A DNA stretch of 64,000 nucleotides from Pectobacterium wasabiae CFBP 3304 (GTDB taxonomy: Bacteria > Pseudomonadota > Gammaproteobacteria > Enterobacterales > Enterobacteriaceae). The translations under genes and the position numbers were made by a program. The notes beneath the pieces were generated by a model. It saw nothing but the letters and a program-made list of their open reading frames with translations, ran no database searches and was not told the origin of the DNA. Below are positions 9,985 to 21,808 of this stretch, one piece after another (the first letter of the stretch is position 1; every line of letters starts with the position of its first letter). Where the stretch lies: contig NZ_CP015750.1 of assembly GCF_001742185.1 (NCBI RefSeq), positions 4,836,001-4,900,000 on the forward strand, in the 5' to 3' direction.

Positions 9985-10194
9985 CTAATTCCTTAGAGTT
10001 AGTCGATTTTTCTCTAATACCCAAACGGCCAGTCCTATCATCAAAAAAAACAATGGATATTTATCATCGGATATCCCCCCTAATGATGGTAAAATATTTT
10101 CGAAATTATAATTTCTTCCTTCACAGGATTTTTTTAAAAAAATAAAAATGTCACTATCCGCATGAAGAGTCACATAGGGCCGAGAATTGACCAT
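9985..10194 (-). CDS. Hypothetical small protein (doubtful)
   Basis: A 69-residue frame with one hydrophobic segment near its C-terminus (YPLFFLMIGLAVWVLEKNRL). I do not recognise the family. It overlaps the 3' end of the integrase remnant in another frame, and the ATG lacks a strong ribosome site. It may be random or a fragment of a lost island gene. Confidence 0.25.
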   Translation of the reverse strand: MVNSRPYVTLHADSDIFIFLKKSCEGRNYNFENILPSLGGISDDKYPLFFLMIGLAVWVLEKNRLTLRN

Positions 10195-10206
10195 AATACC
10201 CGCTTT

Positions 10207-10405
10207 ATCTGGGGGATTACCCGGACACGGCTGGCTGCTTCATTTTTGGTGAGCCAAATGGGTTCCAGTATCGCTAAAAGATCGGTTTTTGTTATTTCGC
10301 TAACGGCTTTTTGAGCGATGAACGGATAAGCATAGGTTTCCAGTGTTGAACGCCACTGTGCAATGTATTTTTTGTTCTTTAACTCACTGGCTTTGATTGC
10401 CAAAA
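10207..10405 (-). pseudogene. Truncated P4-type tyrosine integrase
   Basis: The translation reads AIKASELKNKKYIAQWRSTL, ETYAYPFIAQKAVSEI, TKTDLLAILEPIWLTKNEAASRVR, the core-binding (SAM-like) domain of P4-family integrases. The N-terminal arm-binding domain and the whole catalytic domain (R-H-R-Y) are absent. Similarity stops abruptly after RVR, where the family continues with GRIE...VLDWA. The fragment abuts the right copy of the attachment repeat. It is the remnant of the enzyme that inserted the island at tRNA-Ser. Confidence 0.8.
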
Positions 10406-10408
10406 CAT

Positions 10409-10424
10409 CTTCCTCACCGCCATA
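10409..10424 (+). repeat. attR: second copy of the tRNA-Ser 3' end
   Basis: CTTCCTCACCGCCATA is identical to 8461-8476. It is followed at 10434 by a hairpin that would terminate the tRNA in an island-free chromosome. Confidence 0.75.
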
Positions 10425-10433
10425 AAAGAAAAC

Positions 10434-10464
10434 GCCCCTGACTTGCGTCAAGGGCATTTCCTTT
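10434..10464 (+). terminator. Displaced tRNA-Ser terminator, also near the phoH end
   Basis: GCCCCTGA/TCAAGGGC stem (one mismatch) with loop CTTGCG, then ATTTCCTTTT. It lies just right of attR and converges with the 3' end of phoH. Confidence 0.55.
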
Positions 10465-11966: not shown

Positions 11967-12018
11967 CAGTATCTTGCAGTTTGGCGATGTCAGCCTGAAA
12001 GCAGACACGCTATAGGCG

Positions 12019-12534
12019 TTAGAAATGCCGCTGCCAGTTCAGATATTGATCGTATTTTCGCAACGCACTGCGATAAATATTTTGCTCGATATCAGGAAGG
12101 TAATCACACACCCGCTGCTGTACCCCATCACGGTGCCCGGAAAAGGTTTCTGTAGGATAATTATTTGCGACCAGTAGCTCATCCAACCGCCGAAGACGAA
12201 TGACATATTCACGCATCGTGCTATGACGAACTTCAGTTTGTTCGATAAGATATTGTGTGAAAGCTTTTATATCGAAATAGCTAGCATTGGTATTGCATAA
12301 TATTTCGCTACAAAAGCGGCAAAGTGGGATTAATTCCTGTTGCAAGCTAGACCATATTTCGTCATCGATAAGCCTGTCGATGCTGCCAATCGATTTTTTA
12401 TTGATAAGCTGGTTACGAAATACCAGTGAAACACGATCAAGCGTTTTATCACACTGGGAACAGTTGGTCTGTCTATGTTTGAAGTCTTTCAGATAACGGC
12501 TTAGGAGCTGTTTCTTCCGAATTGATGAGTGCAT
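12019..12534 (-). CDS. fliZ: Flagellar regulator FliZ
   Basis: A 171-residue relative of E. coli FliZ: LLSRYLKDFKHRQTNCSQCDKTLDRVSLVFRNQLINK, CRFCSEI, YFDIKAFTQYLIEQTEVRHSTMREYVIRLRRLDELL. The second half resembles the SAM-like domain of tyrosine recombinases but lacks a catalytic domain. In E. coli FliZ antagonises sigma-S promoters and supports class 2 flagellar expression. ATG at 12534 is preferred over TTG at 12552; its ribosome site (GGA) is weak. It follows fliA on the same strand after 195 bases that contain a long hairpin. fliY, the third gene of the E. coli operon, is absent. Confidence 0.9.
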   Translation of the reverse strand: MHSSIRKKQLLSRYLKDFKHRQTNCSQCDKTLDRVSLVFRNQLINKKSIGSIDRLIDDEIWSSLQQELIPLCRFCSEILCNTNASYFDIKAFTQYLIEQTEVRHSTMREYVIRLRRLDELLVANNYPTETFSGHRDGVQQRVCDYLPDIEQNIYRSALRKYDQYLNWQRHF

Positions 12535-12581
12535 GAATCCATTCCATGACAATACATAATCTCAACGTGAAGCAATGGCAT

Positions 12582-12616
12582 TTTTCATTACGCCAGAGAA
12601 TCTGGTGTAATGAAAA
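12582..12616 (-). other. Long hairpin between fliA and fliZ
   Basis: TTTTCATTACGCCAGA and TCTGGTGTAATGAAAA form a 16-base stem with one mismatch (a G-T or A-C pair, depending on strand) and a 3-base loop. In the fliA-to-fliZ transcript no T-run follows, so it is more likely a processing or stability element, or a partial terminator, than a full stop. Confidence 0.6.
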
Positions 12617-12729
12617 CAGGTAGTATTCGTCATTCAAATACTGATTTATCAATATTCAAAAATTACCATGATCCCGTAGCTTCAGTGACTGAAGATATAT
12701 GTTGATAACAATATTCCTACGCGGCGCAA

Positions 12730-13452
12730 TTAAACATCATTCATTAATTTCACGCGCAGGCGCTTTATCGCCTGACTGTGCAACTGACTGACCCTCGACT
12801 CTCCGACTTCAAGAACGGCACCGATCTCTTTCAGGTTCAACTCTTCCTGATAGTAGAGCGTCAACACCAACTTCTCACGCTCTGGCAGGCTTTCAATGGC
12901 ATCCATCACACGATGGCGCAAATTGCCTTCCATCAGTTGGTGCAATGGATTCGCATCTTCATTGCCTTCCAGTAACGCTTCTGCGCTATCACCGTGTTCT
13001 TCACGCCATTCATCGTAAGAGAAAAGTTGGGTATTGTTCGTATCCAGCAATATCTGACGATAATCCTCAAGCGTGATATTCAGAGTCTGCGCAACCTCTT
13101 GCTCCGTTGGAGTACGACCGAGTTGCTGTTCAGCCTGTTGCATTGCTTGTGCCACTTCCCGCGCATTACGCCGAACGCTGCGTGGAGCCCAATCACGACT
13201 GCGTAATTCATCCAGCATTGAGCCACGAATTCGTTGAACCGCATAGGTAGTAAATGCCGTACCTTGCAACGAATCATAGCGTTCGACTGCACTGAGCAAG
13301 CCAATACCGCCAGCCTGTAGCAGATCGTCAAGTTCAACGCTCGCGGGGAGACGAACCTGTAAACGCAAGGCTTCATGGCGCACTAATGGAACATAGCGCT
13401 TCCAAAGGGAATTTTTATCCATTGTGCCTTCGGCGGTATACAAATCGCTCAC
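12730..13452 (-). CDS. fliA: Flagellar sigma factor FliA (sigma-28)
   Basis: A 240-residue RNA polymerase sigma factor. Region 2 (about 18-90: WKRYVPLVRHEALRLQ, LDDLLQAGGIGLLSAVERYD, FTTYAVQRIRGSMLDELR), region 3 (about 95-150) and region 4 (about 180-235: LPEREKLVLTLYYQEELNLKEIGAVL, ESRVSQLHSQAIKRLR) are all complete. It directs class 3 flagellar transcription and is held inactive by FlgM (encoded at 42.5 kb) until the hook is finished. The start is GTG, as in E. coli. fliZ follows. Confidence 0.97.
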   Translation of the reverse strand: MSDLYTAEGTMDKNSLWKRYVPLVRHEALRLQVRLPASVELDDLLQAGGIGLLSAVERYDSLQGTAFTTYAVQRIRGSMLDELRSRDWAPRSVRRNAREVAQAMQQAEQQLGRTPTEQEVAQTLNITLEDYRQILLDTNNTQLFSYDEWREEHGDSAEALLEGNEDANPLHQLMEGNLRHRVMDAIESLPEREKLVLTLYYQEELNLKEIGAVLEVGESRVSQLHSQAIKRLRVKLMNDV

Positions 13453-13609
13453 AGTGACAAATACCTACGATGATAGTGTTATCGACACTATTATGCTTTT
13501 AGGTAGGGTAGCCAATCGCCTGAATAGGGGCGTAAAAGGAGGGTTATTTGGGATATGTGCTGATAGATATGGAAAAGAAGAACTGCCCGCTCAACGCAGG
13601 CAGTCAGTA

Positions 13610-15304
13610 TTACGGCAGAAGCAATGCAGTTTTGTGCAGTATTTTTAGTAGCTTATTGAGTATTTCACCCGCTATTGCATCCAAATTACGTTGCCCTTTA
13701 AGGTAAATACCGTCAGTGTTTGGCACCCATCCCTGATACAGCGCATCACGTAATAAGGTACGTAATTCCATCGTTGAGCGACTGCCATCCAAATTAGGTA
13801 ATAAGAAGCGCTCAGCATCATTCAAGGCTAGATTAACGGTTTCATGCCAGAGGTTATGAATTTTGATACCGAGACCTTGCTCATGCCGCTTTGCAACCAG
13901 ATAAGCCAGAGAGGCTACCAATTTCGGCTTAGCCAAAGCCGCTGTTTTATCATAATGATCGTATGGCCCGGTATCTAATGTATACCGTAGTTGATTAAGA
14001 CGAAACAGCAACTGCAACGAAGTCAAGACAACCTTCCGCATGTCAATATCATCACCGCTGTGCAGTATCTCTTTTACTTTTATAGTTAATATGTCGATAT
14101 CTAGTGTAGCAGGCCACACCTCCGTCAGTGACTGAATCACAGCCAGAATCGTTTTGTCGCCAGTGAAAAATTCACTATTGTTGTGGCTCACTAAACGACG
14201 CATACCTTCCGGTGTGTTTTCCGTCAGCGGTACTTCTTCAAAGTATCCTGCCCAACGAAGACTCCCCAACAGCTCAAGGTCAGGGCTTATTCGCACCTGT
14301 TTTGCTCGCTCTTGATGGACCACAATACTTTTGCGGAAGTTCCGCCCTACAGCGAAATCCAGATATTGTTGGCACAATACGCGAGGTTGCCCTATTGCGA
14401 CCAAACTATGATGTAGTTGGACATGCGGCCCATAAGTCACCGCTAATTCAGTGTAGGGCTCAGCATCTCCCACATGTTCTAACCCATTTTGCTGTAGCAA
14501 ATCAGCAAATTCGAGCAGATAGCAGGGAGCGTTGAATGTTTCAAGGTATTCGTGAGTAATATAATGATCAGACTGTGCGCTGAGATGGTTAACAACACCG
14601 ATTAACGCTGTTGACATAGGATTGTTGCTATCGATCCCTTTAGATAGCAAATTTAATACTGCCTTGGCACTGCTTAAACGAATCTCATCATCCTGCAACC
14701 CATGACTATGCAATAACATGGCATCACGAATAATATCTCCCGCCTTCCATCCTGGATAGGTATTGTAACTGACATAAGCGACGCCGTTAGGGGACAAATT
14801 TTCGCGCATAACGCGCAACATTCCACTACGCACTTCCGGTGGAATCCAACTAAATACACCATGGGCGATGATATAATCAAACTCACCAAATTCAGGGGTA
14901 ATATCAGTCAGGCTCATAGTATGCAAATGTAAATTATTTATCCCAAGTGCAGTAACTAGTTCCTGCCCTTGCTCGATCTGCATCACTGATAGATCAACAC
15001 CAACCACATATGCCTGCGGATACGCCAGTGCAAACGGCAGCAGGTTTCCTCCACCAGCACACCCTAATTCAAGCACTCTTGCCTGAGCCAGCGGAACACT
15101 CTCCAACCCAAAAAGCTGAGCAGCGGCGCGCAGGTGACCGGGAGAAGAGAAAGAAAAGGCGCTCGACTCATAAACCTTGCGGTCATAGGATTGTGCAATC
15201 GCTTGGTTTTGCAGTTCTACACTATCAGAAGTAAGCTCCACGGAGCTATCCGCTTGTGATATTACATTGCCAGACGGGTCTATTGAAGAATTTGGGATAT
15301 TCAA
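13610..15304 (-). CDS. SAM-dependent protein methyltransferase with regulatory domain, probable flagellin methylase
   Basis: A 564-residue multidomain protein. The class I methyltransferase domain spans about residues 45-200: motif I VLELGCAGGGNLLPFA, VVGVDLSVMQIEQGQ, and YIIAHGVFSWIPPEVRSGML. A methyltransferase-regulatory domain follows (about 220-320, SDHYITHEYLETFNAPCYLLEFADLLQQNGL), then a winged-helix-like C-terminal region. This order resembles the protein-lysine methyltransferases that modify rickettsial OmpB. Start is TTG with AGGAG five bases upstream. It lies between fliA and fliC, where Salmonella has the unrelated flagellin lysine methylase fliB, so flagellin is the likely substrate (inference). 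Confidence 0.75.
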   Translation of the reverse strand: MNIPNSSIDPSGNVISQADSSVELTSDSVELQNQAIAQSYDRKVYESSAFSFSSPGHLRAAAQLFGLESVPLAQARVLELGCAGGGNLLPFALAYPQAYVVGVDLSVMQIEQGQELVTALGINNLHLHTMSLTDITPEFGEFDYIIAHGVFSWIPPEVRSGMLRVMRENLSPNGVAYVSYNTYPGWKAGDIIRDAMLLHSHGLQDDEIRLSSAKAVLNLLSKGIDSNNPMSTALIGVVNHLSAQSDHYITHEYLETFNAPCYLLEFADLLQQNGLEHVGDAEPYTELAVTYGPHVQLHHSLVAIGQPRVLCQQYLDFAVGRNFRKSIVVHQERAKQVRISPDLELLGSLRWAGYFEEVPLTENTPEGMRRLVSHNNSEFFTGDKTILAVIQSLTEVWPATLDIDILTIKVKEILHSGDDIDMRKVVLTSLQLLFRLNQLRYTLDTGPYDHYDKTAALAKPKLVASLAYLVAKRHEQGLGIKIHNLWHETVNLALNDAERFLLPNLDGSRSTMELRTLLRDALYQGWVPNTDGIYLKGQRNLDAIAGEILNKLLKILHKTALLLP

Positions 15305-15580
15305 ATGCGCTCCTGTCGAACAGAGGGTGACGGCAAATTGACACTATACTGCATTTTACGATTATCAAATCACCAAATAATCATGCCAGGTAGGTTCTTT
15401 TCTTTACGTAAAAACATGCCTTCATCATATCAGGCGTCTTTAACTATACTCAATAATGGACACCAAAGGCCTTAAAAAGGAGTGTTTATCAGCCCTGTAA
15501 GATAAAACCTAGAAACGATAAAGCGAAGCAAAATCTATTGATGATCACGCCCACACAATGCTTTTTTAAGTTAGCAATAA

Positions 15581-15612
15581 ATAATCCCCGAATACGAATA
15601 TTCGGGGATTAT
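15581..15612 (-). terminator. Terminator of fliC
   Basis: A perfect 14-base stem (ATAATCCCCGAATA and its complement) with a 4-base loop, 74 bases beyond the fliC stop, followed on the minus strand by TTATTG. It separates fliC from the methyltransferase gene. Confidence 0.85.
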
Positions 15613-15685
15613 ATTATTTACAGGACGAAACAAATAAATACTCTACTTACTTCACCCTGAATTGCTCACTACATTAATCAGAGGA

Positions 15686-16954
15686 TTAACGCAGCAGAGA
15701 CAGGACGGTCTGTGGAACCTGGTTAGCCTGTGCCAACACAGAAGTACCTGCTTGTTGCAGGATCTGGTTTTTGCTCATGTTAGACACTTCAGTCGCAATA
15801 TCCGCATCCTGGATACGGCTACGAGCGTTAGTCAGGTTATTTACCGTATTGTTCAGGTTAGTTACTGTGGATTCAAAACGGTTTTGAATCGCACCCAAAT
15901 CACTACGTAATGAGTCAACTTTTGACAGTGCAGCATCCAGCGCTTTTAACGGATCTACAGTTTTAGCTGCTGCATATGTAGCGGTAGGTGTTGCACCGCC
16001 TACTGCTACCGTTGTAGCACCACCAGCCAAGTCTGCTGATTGATAGTTTTTACCTTGGTAAGAAACATATCCAGTAGTGCCATCACCGCCTAATTTCACC
16101 AGAGCATCATTCAAGGTAACAGTCGTTGCTCCACCGCCTAATGTATTATCTGTAACAGTAGTGGTACTTTTCACAACGTCTACAGCGCCAGCAGTAACCT
16201 TAGCGGCATACACATCGTTACCTACTTTCAGAGCATATTGAGCAGTACCGGCACCGTTGGCATCTAATACGTTATGAAGAGTAACATCCTTAGCTGTAAG
16301 CGCTTTATCGCCAGTCAGACCAAGTCCAGTGTTAAGTGAAGCTAGTGCATCAGTAAAATCAGGGGCTGTAGGTGCAGCTGTGCCATCACCAAGTTGAGTG
16401 ACTGAATTACTTAATTTAGGAGAACTTGCAGATACAGAGAATCCACCCAAACCTAATGTTGAGCTGGTAATTTCCTGAAGATTGATAGTGATAGTTTCGT
16501 TATCGTTAGCACCAACCTGGATTTTCAACCCTTGGTCGCTAGCCAATACTTTCACGCCGTTGAACTGCGTTTGTGAAGATACACGGTCAATTTCATCTAA
16601 ACGCTGTTGGATTTCACCTTGAACTGAATCCAAGTCAACATCTTGGTTAGAACCGTTAGCGGCCTGCACTGCCAGTTCACGGATACGCTGCAAGTTGTTG
16701 TTGATTTCGTTCAACGCGCCTTCAGTAGTCTGTGCAACAGAGATACCATCGTTAGCATTACGTGCAGCCTGAGTCAGGCCTTTGATGTTAGCGGTGAAAC
16801 GGTTAGCGATAGCCTGACCCGCAGCATCGTCTTTAGCACTGTTGATACGGAAGCCAGAAGACAGACGCTCGATAGCTGTACCCAGTGCAGACTGAGATTT
16901 ATTCAGGTTGTTTTGAGCCGTCAGAGACAGGCTGTTAGTATTGATAACTGCCAT
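15686..16954 (-). CDS. fliC: Flagellin FliC
   Basis: A 422-residue filament subunit. The conserved D0/D1 ends are clear: MAVINTNSLSLTAQNNLNKS, GFRINSAKDDAAGQAIANRF, TANIKGLTQAARNANDGISV at the N-terminus, and SRIQDADIATEVSNMSKNQILQQAGTSVLAQANQVPQTVLSLL at the C-terminus. The middle (about 190-340) is a short Ala/Thr/Gly-rich D2 region with several surface-type lysines. The ATG at 16954 has AAGGAA upstream; an upstream in-frame extension is not used. Secreted by the flagellar type III system with FliS as chaperone. A sigma-28 promoter lies 90 bases upstream. Confidence 0.97.
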   Translation of the reverse strand: MAVINTNSLSLTAQNNLNKSQSALGTAIERLSSGFRINSAKDDAAGQAIANRFTANIKGLTQAARNANDGISVAQTTEGALNEINNNLQRIRELAVQAANGSNQDVDLDSVQGEIQQRLDEIDRVSSQTQFNGVKVLASDQGLKIQVGANDNETITINLQEITSSTLGLGGFSVSASSPKLSNSVTQLGDGTAAPTAPDFTDALASLNTGLGLTGDKALTAKDVTLHNVLDANGAGTAQYALKVGNDVYAAKVTAGAVDVVKSTTTVTDNTLGGGATTVTLNDALVKLGGDGTTGYVSYQGKNYQSADLAGGATTVAVGGATPTATYAAAKTVDPLKALDAALSKVDSLRSDLGAIQNRFESTVTNLNNTVNNLTNARSRIQDADIATEVSNMSKNQILQQAGTSVLAQANQVPQTVLSLLR

Positions 16955-17043
16955 AATTATATTCCTTATTATGCATTTAAGTCGATTTCGGGTCGGTTTA
17001 AAGTTCGGGCTATTGCCCACGGCTTTTATCACCGTCCTAACCT

Positions 17044-17070
17044 GTATCGGCGTGCTTGAAAGAAGCTTTA
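17044..17070 (-). promoter_or_regulatory. Sigma-28 promoter of fliC
   Basis: Read on the minus strand: TAAAGCTT (17063-17070), an 11-base spacer, GCCGATAC (17044-17051). Near-perfect FliA consensus (TAAAGTTT-N11-GCCGATAA). Leader about 83 bases. Confidence 0.93.
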
Positions 17071-17161
17071 ATTATTTTTAGAAATTTCTTCGTAGAATGA
17101 AACCATGCGGCAAAGTAAAAATATTGCGTTCTTCATGAGAATCGTATTGCCCCAGTAATAC

Positions 17162-17188
17162 TAAACTTTCTACTACGGCTGCCGATAT
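17162..17188 (+). promoter_or_regulatory. Sigma-28 promoter of fliDST
   Basis: TAAACTTT (17162-17169), an 11-base spacer, GCCGATAT (17181-17188), 38 bases before the fliD ATG and divergent from the fliC promoter. Confidence 0.93.
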
Positions 17189-17226
17189 ACAGTTAATGAC
17201 GTCTGGACCCCATCAAAGGAATTATT

Positions 17227-18666
17227 ATGGCTAATATCAGCTTTACAGGCTCCACCAGCGGTTTTACTGCTGTTCTGGATCAGTTGACCGCATTCGAACA
17301 GTCACGCATCACCCCGGTTAACAACCAGAAAAAAACCTACCAAAGCCGTGATACGGCTTTCGATACGCTGAAAACCGCGCTGACCAAGCTGGAATCTGCT
17401 AACGAAGCCTTGGCCAAAGCAAATAGCATTAATAAAACGTCAATAACAAGTGGCGAAAGCAAAGCGTTTACCGCAACCACGTCCAGCAGTGCTTCTTCTG
17501 GCTCGTACAGCGTTGAAGTGGAAAATCTGGCAACAGCACACTCTTTACTTTCATCCGAATTTTCCAGCAGCAAAGACCCGCTTGGTACAGCCACTGACGG
17601 CGGCACACGCACCCTCACTATCAGCCAACCAGGTCAAGAAAAACCGTTGGAAATTCAACTGACGGACAAACAGACCTCATTAGAGGGCATCCGTGATGCG
17701 ATCAACAAAACAAACGGTAGCGTAAGCGCTAGCATTATCAAAGCCGATGACAACACCTATTATTTAGCGCTTACTGCAAAAGATACGGGGACTCAAGCCA
17801 AAATGACCGTTAGTGTCACTGGTGATGCCCTATTAAATAGTAAACTGAACTATACCCCAGACGACGGTGCCGGCTCTGGCGCAATGAAACAGCAAACTGC
17901 TGCTGAAAATGCCGTGGTTAAATTAAATGGCATTACTATTACTCGCCAGAGTAATACCGTCACCGATGCCGTTGACGGCGTATCATTGACCCTAAAAGCT
18001 GAGAGTGTACCCGGTACAGCAGAAAAACTGACTGTTTCCACCGATACCGCTCCGATGAAGAAAGCGGTTCAAGAGTGGGTCGATGCCTATAATTCACTGC
18101 AGACGACTATTGGCAATGTGACACATTTTACAGCTACGGATCCTAATACCGCTACGCCAGACAGTAGCAATGGTGTGCTACTTGGCAACAGTACGGTACG
18201 TGGTATTCAGACCGCGTTGAAAACGCAAATCTCTAGCGCACAAAGCGGAATGAGTATCAGCACGCTAAATGAAATGGGTATTAAGCAAAACCCTAAAGAT
18301 GGTAAGTTAGAAATTGATGCAAACAAATTGCAAACCGCACTGGCCGAAAAATCAAGCAGCGTAACAGAGTTTTTCGTCGGCGATGGTAAAAAAACCGGGT
18401 TTGCGACTCAAGTTAATACCTACCTAGATGGCGTCTTAGACACAAGTACGGGCGACAAAAAAGGCGCAATTCAAATCGCCAAAGACGGTATCGCCGATAC
18501 ATTAAAGACGATAGAAAAAACGAGAGTTCGCACCCAACTGAGTATTGATGACACCATCGCTCGCTACAAGAAACAGTTCAGCCAACTAGATAAGCTGGTT
18601 TCAGACATGAATAGCACAGGCGACTTCTTAACCAAGCAATTTGCCGCATTAACTAAAAGTCAATAA
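17227..18666 (+). CDS. fliD: Filament cap protein FliD
   Basis: A 479-residue flagellar cap (HAP2) that folds incoming flagellin at the filament tip. N-terminal FliD_N region (about 10-110, LDQLTAFEQSRITPVNNQKKTYQSRDTAFDTLKTAL) and C-terminal FliD_C region (about 240-475, AVQEWVDAYNSLQTTIG, LNEMGIKQNPKDGKLEIDANKL, SIDDTIARYKKQFSQLDKLVSDMNSTGDFLTKQFA) are both present. It opens the fliDST operon, opposite fliC. GGA ribosome site just before the ATG. Confidence 0.96.
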   Translation: MANISFTGSTSGFTAVLDQLTAFEQSRITPVNNQKKTYQSRDTAFDTLKTALTKLESANEALAKANSINKTSITSGESKAFTATTSSSASSGSYSVEVENLATAHSLLSSEFSSSKDPLGTATDGGTRTLTISQPGQEKPLEIQLTDKQTSLEGIRDAINKTNGSVSASIIKADDNTYYLALTAKDTGTQAKMTVSVTGDALLNSKLNYTPDDGAGSGAMKQQTAAENAVVKLNGITITRQSNTVTDAVDGVSLTLKAESVPGTAEKLTVSTDTAPMKKAVQEWVDAYNSLQTTIGNVTHFTATDPNTATPDSSNGVLLGNSTVRGIQTALKTQISSAQSGMSISTLNEMGIKQNPKDGKLEIDANKLQTALAEKSSSVTEFFVGDGKKTGFATQVNTYLDGVLDTSTGDKKGAIQIAKDGIADTLKTIEKTRVRTQLSIDDTIARYKKQFSQLDKLVSDMNSTGDFLTKQFAALTKSQ

Positions 18667-18680
18667 AAAGGGGGCTCGCG

Positions 18681-19088
18681 ATGTATAGCAGAACCGGCAC
18701 GCAAGCCTATGCCCAGGTTGGTGTAGAAAGTGCGGTAATGAGTGCAGACCCACACCAACTTATTGTTATGCTGTTTGATGGCGCAAAAAGTTCGATGGTG
18801 CGTGCCCGTATTTTACTGGAACAAGGTGACATTCCAGGTAAAGGGGCAGCCTTATCAAAAGCTATCAATATCATTAGCAATGGCCTAAAAGTTGGGCTAG
18901 ATATGGAGAAGGGCGGCGAATTGTCGGAAAATTTGTCAGCGCTGTATGACTATATGACGCAACGCCTGATAATCGCTAACCTTCACAATGATGTGAAGGT
19001 AATAGAGGAAGTTGAAACTTTACTGGAAAACATTGCCAGCGCCTGGCGTCAAATAGGCCCTCATTATCAGCCGCCTCAGGAAAAATAG
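18681..19088 (+). CDS. fliS: Flagellin export chaperone FliS
   Basis: A 135-residue helical chaperone that binds the C-terminal D0 region of flagellin and prevents premature polymerisation. Family features: YAQVGVESAVMSADPHQLIVMLFDGAKSSMVRA, KGAALSKAINIISNGLKVGLDMEKGGELSENLSALYDYMTQRL. Fourteen bases after fliD with a GGGGG ribosome site; followed at once by fliT. Confidence 0.96.
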   Translation: MYSRTGTQAYAQVGVESAVMSADPHQLIVMLFDGAKSSMVRARILLEQGDIPGKGAALSKAINIISNGLKVGLDMEKGGELSENLSALYDYMTQRLIIANLHNDVKVIEEVETLLENIASAWRQIGPHYQPPQEK

Positions 19089-19089
19089 C

Positions 19090-19425
19090 ATGAGCAGTCT
19101 CCATCAACTTTTTAAAGATTATCAGCAACTGCAAACACTAAGCCGTAAAATTCTTGCATTAGCATCAGGTGGTCAATGGGATGAATTGGTTGATCAGGAG
19201 ATTGTTTACGTTCAATTGGTTGAAAATCTAACTAAAAGACCGCTCCCAACCGATCTTGACAGTGTTATGCAACTGCATTTTCGCCGAATTTTACGTGAAA
19301 TTCTTGAGAATGAATCTCAAATCAAGGAACTGTTACGTAAAAGAATGGATGACCTCAGTTTGCTAATGAAAAACTCGCTTGCACAGCAAAACATTAATAC
19401 TGCCTATGGTGAATTTTCCGAGTAA
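19090..19425 (+). CDS. fliT: Flagellar chaperone and FlhDC inhibitor FliT
   Basis: A 111-residue helical protein (LFKDYQQLQTLSRKILALASGGQWDELVDQEIVYVQLVENL, LREILENESQIKELLRKRMDDLSLLM). By family it is the chaperone for FliD and also inhibits FlhD4C2 when FliD has been exported. Last gene of the operon, one base after the fliS stop; a palindromic terminator follows. Confidence 0.93.
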   Translation: MSSLHQLFKDYQQLQTLSRKILALASGGQWDELVDQEIVYVQLVENLTKRPLPTDLDSVMQLHFRRILREILENESQIKELLRKRMDDLSLLMKNSLAQQNINTAYGEFSE

Positions 19426-19462
19426 CAGCGCCTACCGAGCGATTTAAGTAATCGATAATAAT

Positions 19463-19490
19463 ATAAATGCCTGCATGTGCAGGCATTTAT
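19463..19490. terminator. Bidirectional terminator between fliT and fliE
   Basis: A perfect palindrome: ATAAATGCCTGCA and its complement around TG. The T/A-rich outer arms supply a T-run on either strand, fitting the two convergent genes. Confidence 0.88.
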
Positions 19491-19522
19491 ATTGATAATG
19501 CTTTTTTCGGTAGTGAATCATC

Positions 19523-19837
19523 TTACACAGACATGTTCATCACTTCCTGGTACGCAGACACCAGTTTATTACGCACCTGAATACCCATCTGCATTGAAAT
19601 AGATGACTTTTGCAAATCCACCATCACATCATTCAATGCGACACCCGGCACGCCCATGGTGAATTTTTCGCCTTGCGCGCGAGCTACCTGTTGCGTATCG
19701 CTAATCTTATTAATCGCCGCTTTCAACTCACTGGCAAAACCAGGTTCTACCGACGGCCTAGCTATTGGCGTACCCGAGGCTTGTAGAGCTTTAACCTGCA
19801 TTTGTTGTAAAACGCCATCAATACCTTGAATCGACAT
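19523..19837 (-). CDS. fliE: Hook-basal body adaptor FliE
   Basis: A 104-residue protein ([20 protein letters not shown] to [26 protein letters not shown]) that joins the MS ring to the proximal rod. The ATG at 19837 has GAGGT upstream and matches the family N-terminus; an upstream in-frame extension is not used. Single-gene unit divergent from fliF, a class 2 arrangement. Confidence 0.95.
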
Positions 19838-20095
19838 ATTACCTCGCTGAACCCTACTAATTAGGCTTTTTATATACATTTATGACAGCGATACCCTACC
19901 ATACCCCACTTAGTCTAAATGAGGTAATTAGCGTGAAAAATGCCACCTTATCGACCCATCGATTTTTCTTTTACGGAAAATAATGACATGCCGGTAAACC
20001 TAGGCGAAATATTTATTGATTGCGCAATCAGGGAGTTCTGTTTTGTCACGTCACAACGTTAAGTATATCGTTCAACAACCAAGCAGAGATAGAGT

Positions 20096-21808
20096 ATGAA
20101 CGCCTCATTAACCGGCTCCGCTACCGGTAAAAATAGCTTTGGCGAAATACTCAACCGGTTACGCGCCAATCCGAAAATTCCGCTCTTGATCGCAGCCGCT
20201 GCGACAATTGCCATTGTCGTCGCGTTGACTCTATGGGCTAAGGGCCCTGATTATCGGGTTCTTTATAGCAATATAAATGACCGTGATGGCGGTGCGATTG
20301 TCAGCGAATTAACAAAGCTGAATATCCCTTATCGCTTTGCGGAGAATGGCGGAGCTATCATGATTCCCGCCGCGAATGTCTATGAGACCCGTCTGCGGCT
20401 TGCCCAGTTAGGGCTGCCAAAAGGCGGCGCAGTTGGCTTTGAATTGCTTGATAAGGAAAAGTTTGGCATCAGCCAATTCAGCGAGCAGATTAATTACCAA
20501 CGTGCGCTGGAAGGTGAGCTATCCAGAACGATAGAAACACTCGGTCCCGTGCAAAATGCACGAGTTCACCTTGCCATACCTAAGCCGTCACTGTTCGTGC
20601 GTGAGCAAAAATCGCCCTCCTCTTCTGTCACCCTGACATTACAACCAGGCCGAGCATTAGACGAAGGGCAGATAAATTCTATCGTTTACATGGTCTCTAG
20701 CAGCGTTGCTGGCCTCCCGCCGGATAACGTCACTGTCGTCGATCAAACCGGACGCCTGTTAACTCAGGCAGGTGGCAGCGGCCGCGACATGAATGCGGCA
20801 CAGCTTAAATATAGCAATGAAGTCGAGGCAATGTACCAGCGCCGGATAGAATCCATTATTGCGCCAATGGTCGGTATGGGGAACGTGCATGCTCAGGTCA
20901 CTGCGCAAATCGATTTTTCCGCTCGTGAACAAACCGACGAGCAGTATCAACCCAATCAGCCACCGGATAAAGCAGCGGTTCGTTCTCAACAAACCAGCCA
21001 GAGCGAGCAGAAAGGAGGCCCGAACGTAGGAGGGGTTCCTGGTGCATTGACCAATCAGCCCGCACCAGCGCCGACAGCCCCTATCGCGACGCCGCCAAAC
21101 AATGCAAACAATCAGGCTGGTACTGCTGGCCAGCAAAACCAGAACAATGCGGGCGGCACACAAGCAAATGCTAATGCCGTTATTCAGACATCAAATGTTC
21201 GTAATGATGCAACAACAAATTATGAAGTCGACAAAACGATCCTGCATACCAAACACAGCACTGGTGGTGTAAAACGCTTGTCTGCAGCCGTTATCGTTAA
21301 TTATCAACCTCCTGGTGAGGATGGCAAACCTGTAGCCCTGACGGAAGAGCAGATCAAACAGATTGAAACGGTCGCGCGTGAAGCGATGGGCTTCTCGACT
21401 GAACGTGGTGATACCTTAAATGTTGTTAACACGCCATTTATGGACAGTACCGAAGGCTCTAGTGAACTCCCCTTCTGGCAAAAACAGGCATTTTTCGATC
21501 TCCTGATGGAAGCCGGGCGTTGGCTACTTGTTCTGATTGTTGCCTGGATCTTGTGGCGTAAGTTGGTTCGTCCACAGTTGCGGAAAAAAGAACTGCAACA
21601 AGAAGCGGCACTGGCTGCAGCCAGCCTGAATAAAGGCAATGATGATGATGTTGTTGTTAACCTCAGTACCTCTGAAATTGAACAACAACGAAAATCTCAG
21701 CAACGCGTCAGTGCAGAAATGCAAAGTAACCGCATACGTGAACTGGCGGAGAACGACCCACGCGTTGTCGCTCTGGTGATTCGTCAATGGATGAGTACTG
21801 AACTATGA
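20096..21808 (+). CDS. fliF: MS-ring protein FliF
   Basis: A 570-residue membrane protein that builds the MS ring and houses the export gate. TM1 at about 27-48 ([20 protein letters not shown]), ring-building motifs ([51 protein letters not shown]), a Pro/Gln/Asn-rich linker (about 290-360), TM2 at about 465-485 ([12 protein letters not shown]), and the C-terminal FliG-binding tail ([19 protein letters not shown]). First gene of fliFGHIJK; its stop overlaps the fliG start by 4 bases. Confidence 0.97.

Follow-up and report, generated by a model that had tools for sequence, protein, structure and literature searches.

The gene at 13610..15304 on the minus strand of the window (the whole stretch of 64,000 nucleotides of Pectobacterium wasabiae DNA that was analysed) encodes an intact class I AdoMet-dependent methyltransferase with the family membership and fold of PKMT1 and PKMT2, the lysine methyltransferases of OmpB. 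We consider it likely that this enzyme belongs to a largely flagellin-dedicated branch of PKMT-fold lysine methyltransferases and most probably methylates several lysines of the flagellin encoded next to it, FliC. The flagellum is the most likely target because the family methylates lysines of surface proteins and because close relatives of the enzyme are nearly always found beside flagellin genes, and flagellin-lysine methylation, as a predicted function, is thus well supported by context. ORF coordinates and Pfam matches confirm that, as the first-pass annotation had claimed, a 564-residue methyltransferase lies between fliA and fliC. The minus strand carries fliZ (12019..12552; TIGR03823, 1.1e-89), fliA (12730..13452; sigma-28, with sigma-70 regions 2, 3, and 4, named from position and family), the methyltransferase gene, and fliC (15686..16954, with its ATG at 16954), which encodes the 422-residue flagellin proposed as substrate. 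Beyond these lie fliD (17227..18666, plus strand, divergent from fliC), fliS, fliT, fliE, fliF, fliG, and fliI-type genes. According to the ORF list of the window, the methyltransferase is the sole gene between fliA and fliC, and one further ORF of at least 80 aa lies wholly within that interval (107 aa, opposite strand). The GC content of the gene is 45.4%, as against 50–51% for fliA, fliF, fliG, and fliI, and is also 46% in fliC and fliD. A phage integrase fragment at 10170-10457, consisting of the central domain alone and located beside a phoH-type gene, is perhaps the remnant of a mobile element.

Translation of the gene starts from a TTG at 15304, and its leader (15305..15350, minus strand) shows, by eye, an AGGAG 5 nt ahead of the TTG and a TATAGT-like box. 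Since an in-frame ATG in the sister genome directly abuts the AGGAG and the TTG there stands at normal spacing (by eye), TTG is the probable start in both genomes. The gene is probably its own transcription unit. A terminator-like hairpin of 14 pairs, called on both strands, lies 3' of fliC (15581..15612, minus strand), where it probably marks the boundary between fliC and the methyltransferase gene, and another (13581..13605, minus strand) lies directly 3' of the methyltransferase gene, ahead of fliA; in total, 8 terminator-like sites were found in 13400-17300 versus 2.9 expected. Good sigma-28 boxes were detected upstream of fliC (TAAA-N15-GCCGATAC) and fliD (TAAA-N15-GCCGATAT), and the same scan found none ahead of the methyltransferase gene. 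Given that result and the flanking hairpins, the gene does not plainly belong to the late flagellar regulon. A scan for sigma-70-type promoters gave 8 sites compared to 8.3 in shuffled sequence, and hence no excess.

The PKMT-like architecture proposed in the first-pass annotation was borne out by domains, profile, and predicted fold alike. Pfam matches on the 564-residue protein were all above cut-offs, namely Methyltransf_25 (3.1e-14), MethyTransf_Reg (PF10119, 2.7e-21), and PKMT_2nd (PF21782, 1.6e-8), placing the AdoMet-binding domain within about residues 72–184, the regulatory domain at residues 246–330, and a C-terminal winged helix at residues 481–561. Among the NCBIfam models listed, the protein passes no cut-off, and the FliB model NF038110 is absent from its matches. 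The best PDB matches by phmmer were PKMT1 (1.5e-68) and PKMT2 (3.3e-60), and a profile built from 47 homologues matched PKMT1 (5dnk) with an E-value of 2.1e-149 across profile positions 12–531 of 533. An AlphaFold2 model (pLDDT 91.8) returned chains of PKMT1 and PKMT2 as the top 8 Foldseek matches, with 525–537 alignment columns, TM-scores of 0.77–0.79 / 0.83–0.86, and identities of 24–29% in the fold alignment; the next match after these chains was Rv2067c, a histone H3K79 lysine methyltransferase of M. tuberculosis. In its own genome, the protein is the sole match at an E-value of 1e-10, and two further weak, partial matches appear at 0.01.

Residues of the active site have been kept. D102 and H146 contact AdoMet in RpPKMT1 (PMC11784438), and their equivalents here, read by eye from the phmmer alignment (in which the PDB chain is offset by one residue), are Asp104 and His148, both kept in all 47 aligned standalone homologues. 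PF10119 was found in 47/47 and PF21782 in 38/47 members of the same alignment. For the two RpPKMT1 positions that affect the Km for OmpB, Leu103 is kept as Leu105 and Ile130 is replaced by Leu132 (by eye). At 30 positions the 47 standalone homologues show no variation, and the window copy keeps all of these, partly by construction, as it is itself one of the 47. Compared to the 84%-identical copy of the sister species, dN/dS was 0.14, demonstrating purifying selection.

The enzyme thus resembles PKMT1 (R. prowazekii, 5dnk) and PKMT2 (R. typhi, 5doo) in its full-length profile, fold, AdoMet residues, regulatory region, and winged-helix C-terminus, and differs from them in the Leu132 substitution, in its location in a flagellar locus, and in its expected substrate, flagellin. 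KmtA of Acinetobacter sp. Tol 5 belongs to the same outer-membrane PKMT family, and methylation of multiple lysines of a surface fiber is proposed for both enzymes; as far as the published description of KmtA allows comparison, its substrate is the adhesin AtaA, whereas that expected here is flagellin (PMC11784438). In Salmonella, the same genomic slot holds FliB, with the same proposed product (PMC8598068). FliB, however, is described as an iron-sulfur enzyme with a CX4CX3CC motif (PMC8598068), which the window protein lacks, having three isolated cysteines (by eye); NF038110 also has no match in its genome, in agreement with the earlier view that the two enzymes are unrelated. In the mechanism that we infer, from substrate, residue, and number of methyl groups to timing and effect on the filament, the enzyme would act in the cytoplasm before export, moving methyl groups from AdoMet to several FliC lysines, mainly those of the variable domain, which is exposed at the surface and has 8 Lys and no Arg. 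Transfer would be direct, in the pocket of the AdoMet domain, with Asp104 and His148 holding AdoMet, and the middle and winged-helix domains may help to grip the substrate. The filament would thereby carry methyl-lysines, as it does in Salmonella through the unrelated FliB, and would become more hydrophobic. No mass spectrum of a flagellin from this clade was found in the literature examined.

The proposed link to flagellin gained support from another class, in which the fliC neighborhood is conserved. A scan of one genome per species detected 384 relatives among pattern matches, and the best 80 of the 384 were kept. These 80 include 22 standalone relatives with 43–60% identity, all from records named as members of Alcaligenaceae (among them Pusillimonas, Parapusillimonas, Alcaligenes, Eoetvoesiella, Verticiella, Bordetella trematum, and Achromobacter), and a fliC-like ORF was present in the loci of 21 of these 22. 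The exception lies 2 kb from fliA, and a second copy in the same genome is near fliC. In five Achromobacter loci (L080–L084), fliC is flanked by the standalone enzyme on one side and by a long PKMT-bearing protein on the other. We further surveyed 268 genomes from the family of Pusillimonas sp. TS35 (Alcaligenaceae-type), detecting an enzyme match in 70 and flagellin in at least 167. For standalone copies with at least 41% identity (40 copies in 39 genomes), a listed fliC was no more than 10 kb away in at least 38 cases and no more than 1 kb away in at least 34, distances being based on listed fliC places, so that misses may be over-counted; one of the two misses has no listed fliC on its contig and the other is a second copy at 22.9 kb. 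Among standalone copies below 41% identity, at least 1/9 was within 10 kb of a listed fliC, and 7/9 lay on contigs with no listed fliC. Fusions, the term used here for proteins whose open frame exceeds 1000 aa, lay no more than 10 kb from a listed fliC in at least 30/31 cases and no more than 1 kb from it in at least 21/31, and of the 7 short fragments set apart in the survey, at least 3 were within 10 kb.

A class-wide sample yielded matches in 35/369 genomes, including our own, and none of the 29 class-wide loci examined (of 39 places listed, own included) had a flagellin-like ORF in the 1.5-kb flanks, as judged by similarity to the ends of the window flagellin, a test by which distant flagellins may be missed. 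A Lysobacter locus gave a weak flagellin-like match (E 7e-6) in an ORF with no Pfam match. In a sample of the order, 15/394 genomes had a match, and the only other standalone copy found beside flagellins encodes a 546-residue PKMT (L046:9780-11417) in another family of the order (genome G048), located between a FleQ-type regulator and four flagellins (11988-19649). The homologue in genome G056 adjoins a purL-type gene, with no flagellin labelled in the 20 kb examined.

Within a single genus, the slot between fliA and fliC holds a standalone PKMT, FliB, or glycosylation-type islands. Among 25 same-genus genomes (own included), the standalone copy occurs in 2, the window genome and its sister (84% identical), and FliB in 1 (L029:2639-3757). 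A longer protein with a matching N-terminus (ORF of 1141–1166 aa) is present in 9/25 genomes, where it adjoins fliC in 9/9 loci and forms part of a glycosylation-type island occupying this slot; a DegT-type aminotransferase and a hexapeptide-type transferase are among its neighbors in one such island. The window's own slot contains no glycosyltransferase. Replacement of FliB, as the first-pass annotation had put it, is probably not the history of the locus, given that FliB was found in 1/25 same-genus genomes and PKMT-bearing long proteins in 9, for which reason the PKMT is better termed a FliB analogue. Four same-genus genomes also encode a second, longer flagellin-like protein (483–634 aa) on the fliA side of the slot (L025:1771-3222, L029:1054-2535, L030:16769-18268, and L038:16608-18509), the middle of which has 5–15 Arg versus 6–9 Lys; the protein at L038 may be of a different kind. 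In one further genome (L032:1-20000), the slot and fliD appear fragmented into numerous short ORFs, a pattern suggestive of a decaying flagellar locus.

That a methyltransferase exists at this slot is already known. De Maayer and Cowan (2016) described a distinct AdoMet methyltransferase, smtA, on island FMI2 of six P. wasabiae strains (PMC4875605). The description of an AdoMet methyltransferase alone between fliC and fliA, with no glycosylation genes, fits the window (PMC4875605), and by this match SmtA is very probably the product of the window gene or of its orthologue. The same work describes the slot and reports 296 strains with FliB islands, and the terms PKMT, Alcaligenaceae, and Bordetella are absent from its main text (PMC4875605). 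Methyl-lysines have been reported on flagellins of Shewanella and Aeromonas (PMC3765264, PMC9290775), where a putative methyltransferase from Shewanella (Sun et al. 2013) is cited. The flagellin methylation mentioned in the account of the outer-membrane PKMT family and of KmtA/AtaA is that of Salmonella (PMC11784438). No report of a PKMT acting on flagellin was found in titles and abstract openings of the open-licence literature, nor was a characterized flagellin lysine methylase other than FliB in the portion of that literature examined. What seems new here is the PKMT identity, the fliC linkage across two classes (Beta- and Gammaproteobacteria in the NCBI sense), and the erosion of the catalytic site in the fusions.

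Long PKMT-bearing proteins combine the methyltransferase module with a family-41 glycosyltransferase (GT41), found in 9/9 of those scanned, as PKMT-TPR-GT41 proteins of 1133–1173 aa. These comprise 5 of the 9 same-genus proteins (L024, L019, L033, L041, and L050), each with methyltransferase, MethyTransf_Reg, TPR, and Glyco_transf_41 domains, and 4/4 from Alcaligenaceae (L080, L084, L109, and L143); examples beside or near fliC are L024:9010-12444, L080:9268-12666, and L143:9875-13393. The N-terminal module of the fusions is homologous to the window enzyme (31–45% identity over 280 positions), and 18 fusion N-termini retain a core consisting of Asp104 (17/18), Pro184 (18/18), Gly185 (18/18), and Arg324 (18/18). 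Several positions that never vary among the 47 standalone enzymes are largely lost, namely Gly86 (0/18), Trp153 (0/18), Trp186 (1/18), His251 (1/18), Gln109 (1/18), and His148 (10/18), as is Asn181 (46/47 standalone, 1/18 fusions). As the lost invariant residues belong to the active-site region, the standalone enzymes and the fusions probably differ in chemistry, and the fusion module may have been retained for binding or assembly and not for lysine methylation. GT41 flagellin glycosyltransferases of the published islands (PMC4875605) likewise share the homologous N-terminal module with the window enzyme, and differ from it by the TPR and GT41 regions and by the loss of several positions in the catalytic region; in enterobacterial glycosylation islands, methyltransferase domains are reported for nearly all GT41 enzymes (De Maayer and Cowan, PMC4875605).

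Such fusions bear on two other readings of the window enzyme. Its target on flagellin could be something other than the lysine side chain itself, such as a sugar or another residue, which would fit the glycosylation islands, many with methyltransferases, that fill the slot in relatives (PMC4875605) and the PKMT-like module fused to GT41 there. We regard this as quite unlikely, since the window's own slot has no glycosyltransferase, its genome has no family-41 match, and it is the glycosylation-linked fusions that have lost Gly86, Trp153, and Trp186, residues invariant in the standalone enzymes. The erosion of the fusions also suggests that the module can persist without an intact active site, so that the window protein might be a docking or export-control protein of flagellin that has lost methylation; the 30 standalone-invariant positions kept in this copy, even if partly by construction, and its low dN/dS argue against this reading, which we consider highly improbable.

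Divergence of the locus points to a history shared by enzyme and flagellin. Between the window and the sister species, dS was 0.64 for the PKMT and 0.57 for fliC, compared to 0.15 for both fliA and fliD, so the PKMT and fliC share a history unlike that of their flanks. A tree of 110 homologous domains, reduced to 62 rows by removal of those at least 80% identical (the window and sister copies being kept) and built with a quick method that gives no bootstrap, grouped these two with copies from Parapusillimonas and Alcaligenes (SH-aLRT 98), a betaproteobacterial affinity. One branch with support of 100 splits 24 rows from 38, of which 37 are not at fliC and the remaining one is the G048 copy. 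The 24-row side holds the window, 10 standalone enzymes at fliC, 9 fusions (Pectobacterium-type, Alcaligenaceae, and others of the family), and 4 rows labelled elsewhere, such that 20/24 rows are at fliC or are fusions by label, the window included. Of the 4 labelled elsewhere, one is the copy near fliA described above, one is a fusion ending at the edge of its locus (L061), and two (L111 and L141) are true exceptions, not at fliC; the first two owe their label to an error of the labelling rule. Two fliC-linked Achromobacter rows (L077 and L080) fall outside an inner set with the other 22 (support 99). The G048 copy lies on a long branch far from the window clade and is perhaps the product of an independent recruitment.

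Judged from these relationships, the enzyme most likely reached the Pectobacterium-type lineage by transfer from Alcaligenaceae. Co-transfer of the flagellin variable domain from Alcaligenaceae was considered and dropped, as similarity searches gave no clear donor: the nearest matches to the window variable region were the sister species (37%) and then three Alcaligenaceae-type flagellins (E 9e-13 to 2e-10), all from genomes with no listed enzyme match.

The slot has been termed an integration hot spot by De Maayer and Cowan (PMC4875605), and the window enzyme could accordingly be a broad surface-protein lysine methyltransferase resembling the rickettsial PKMTs, with an adhesin or outer-membrane protein as its main substrate, for which the fliA-fliC interval is merely a favored insertion spot for foreign DNA. 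The known substrates of the family, OmpB and AtaA, and the further outer-membrane proteins modified by rickettsial enzymes (PMC11784438) are of this sort. A Dyella homologue (L088:9986-11533) also lies about 1.3 kb from a 2885-residue ORF (12862-21516) whose YadA head and stalk repeats mark it as of trimeric autotransporter type, the substrate class of KmtA. A hot spot, however, leaves unexplained the fliC linkage of at least 38/40 copies in another class, the divergence shared by PKMT and fliC, and the occurrence, beside fliC, of this module fused to a glycosyltransferase, and we therefore consider this alternative unlikely compared to a flagellin-directed enzyme.

Lysine content of the flagellins was analysed separately, and lysine-dense flagellin was dropped as a signature of PKMT, as it did not differ significantly from genomes with no match, and is counted as no support. 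In the window FliC, the variable region, taken to start at residue 176 and to stop 95 residues short of the C-terminus, is 152 aa long and contains 8 Lys and no Arg; its counterpart in the sister genome is 161 aa long and contains 7 Lys and a single Arg. Same-genus fusion genomes, of which 8/9 were measured, encode flagellins of 275–290 aa whose variable regions are 5–20 aa long with 0–1 lysine; in the ninth (G016), a 298-aa flagellin frame is visible, and an overlapping ORF kept the flagellin out of the measured set. The test covered 126 flagellins from 130 loci, the other 4 (G544, G429 second contig, G651, and G509) being skipped as their conserved C-terminal end was missing; G636 and G655 (2/102 planned regions) were left out, G649 had no listed fliC, and variable regions under 60 aa were excluded. 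Median lysine density of the variable region was 5.1% for standalone and 4.5% for standalone-plus-fusion genomes versus 4.4% for no-match genomes (p 0.057, not significant), and Lys/(Lys+Arg) did not differ from no-match genomes (p 0.87). Flagellins linked to PKMT had a higher lysine density than those of fusion-only genomes (p 0.003, uncorrected). Their higher lysine count compared to no-match genomes (p 2e-8) goes with longer domains. A phylogenetic comparison provided 5 supported independent pairs on the tree, too few for significance. In all 36 readable PKMT-linked flagellins, the variable region contains 5 or more lysines, and flagellins with no enzyme also carry lysines (0–20).

If flagellin is indeed methylated by this enzyme, a second, unrelated enzyme family would carry out the modification, making flagellin methylation convergent, and the substrates of outer-membrane PKMTs would extend from OmpB and AtaA to the flagellum. 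The gene is directly testable in the window and in 39 genomes of the Alcaligenaceae-type survey. In the fusions, what was once an enzyme module may have come to serve in substrate recognition. It is possible, although we put this forward only tentatively, that a flagellin-dedicated PKMT branch of Beta- and Gammaproteobacteria moves with fliC as a flagellin-plus-writer cassette, and that the fusion module has lost methyl transfer and recognizes flagellin for the glycosyltransferase. Were this true, one ancestral flagellin-binding fold would underlie two flagellar decorations at one locus.
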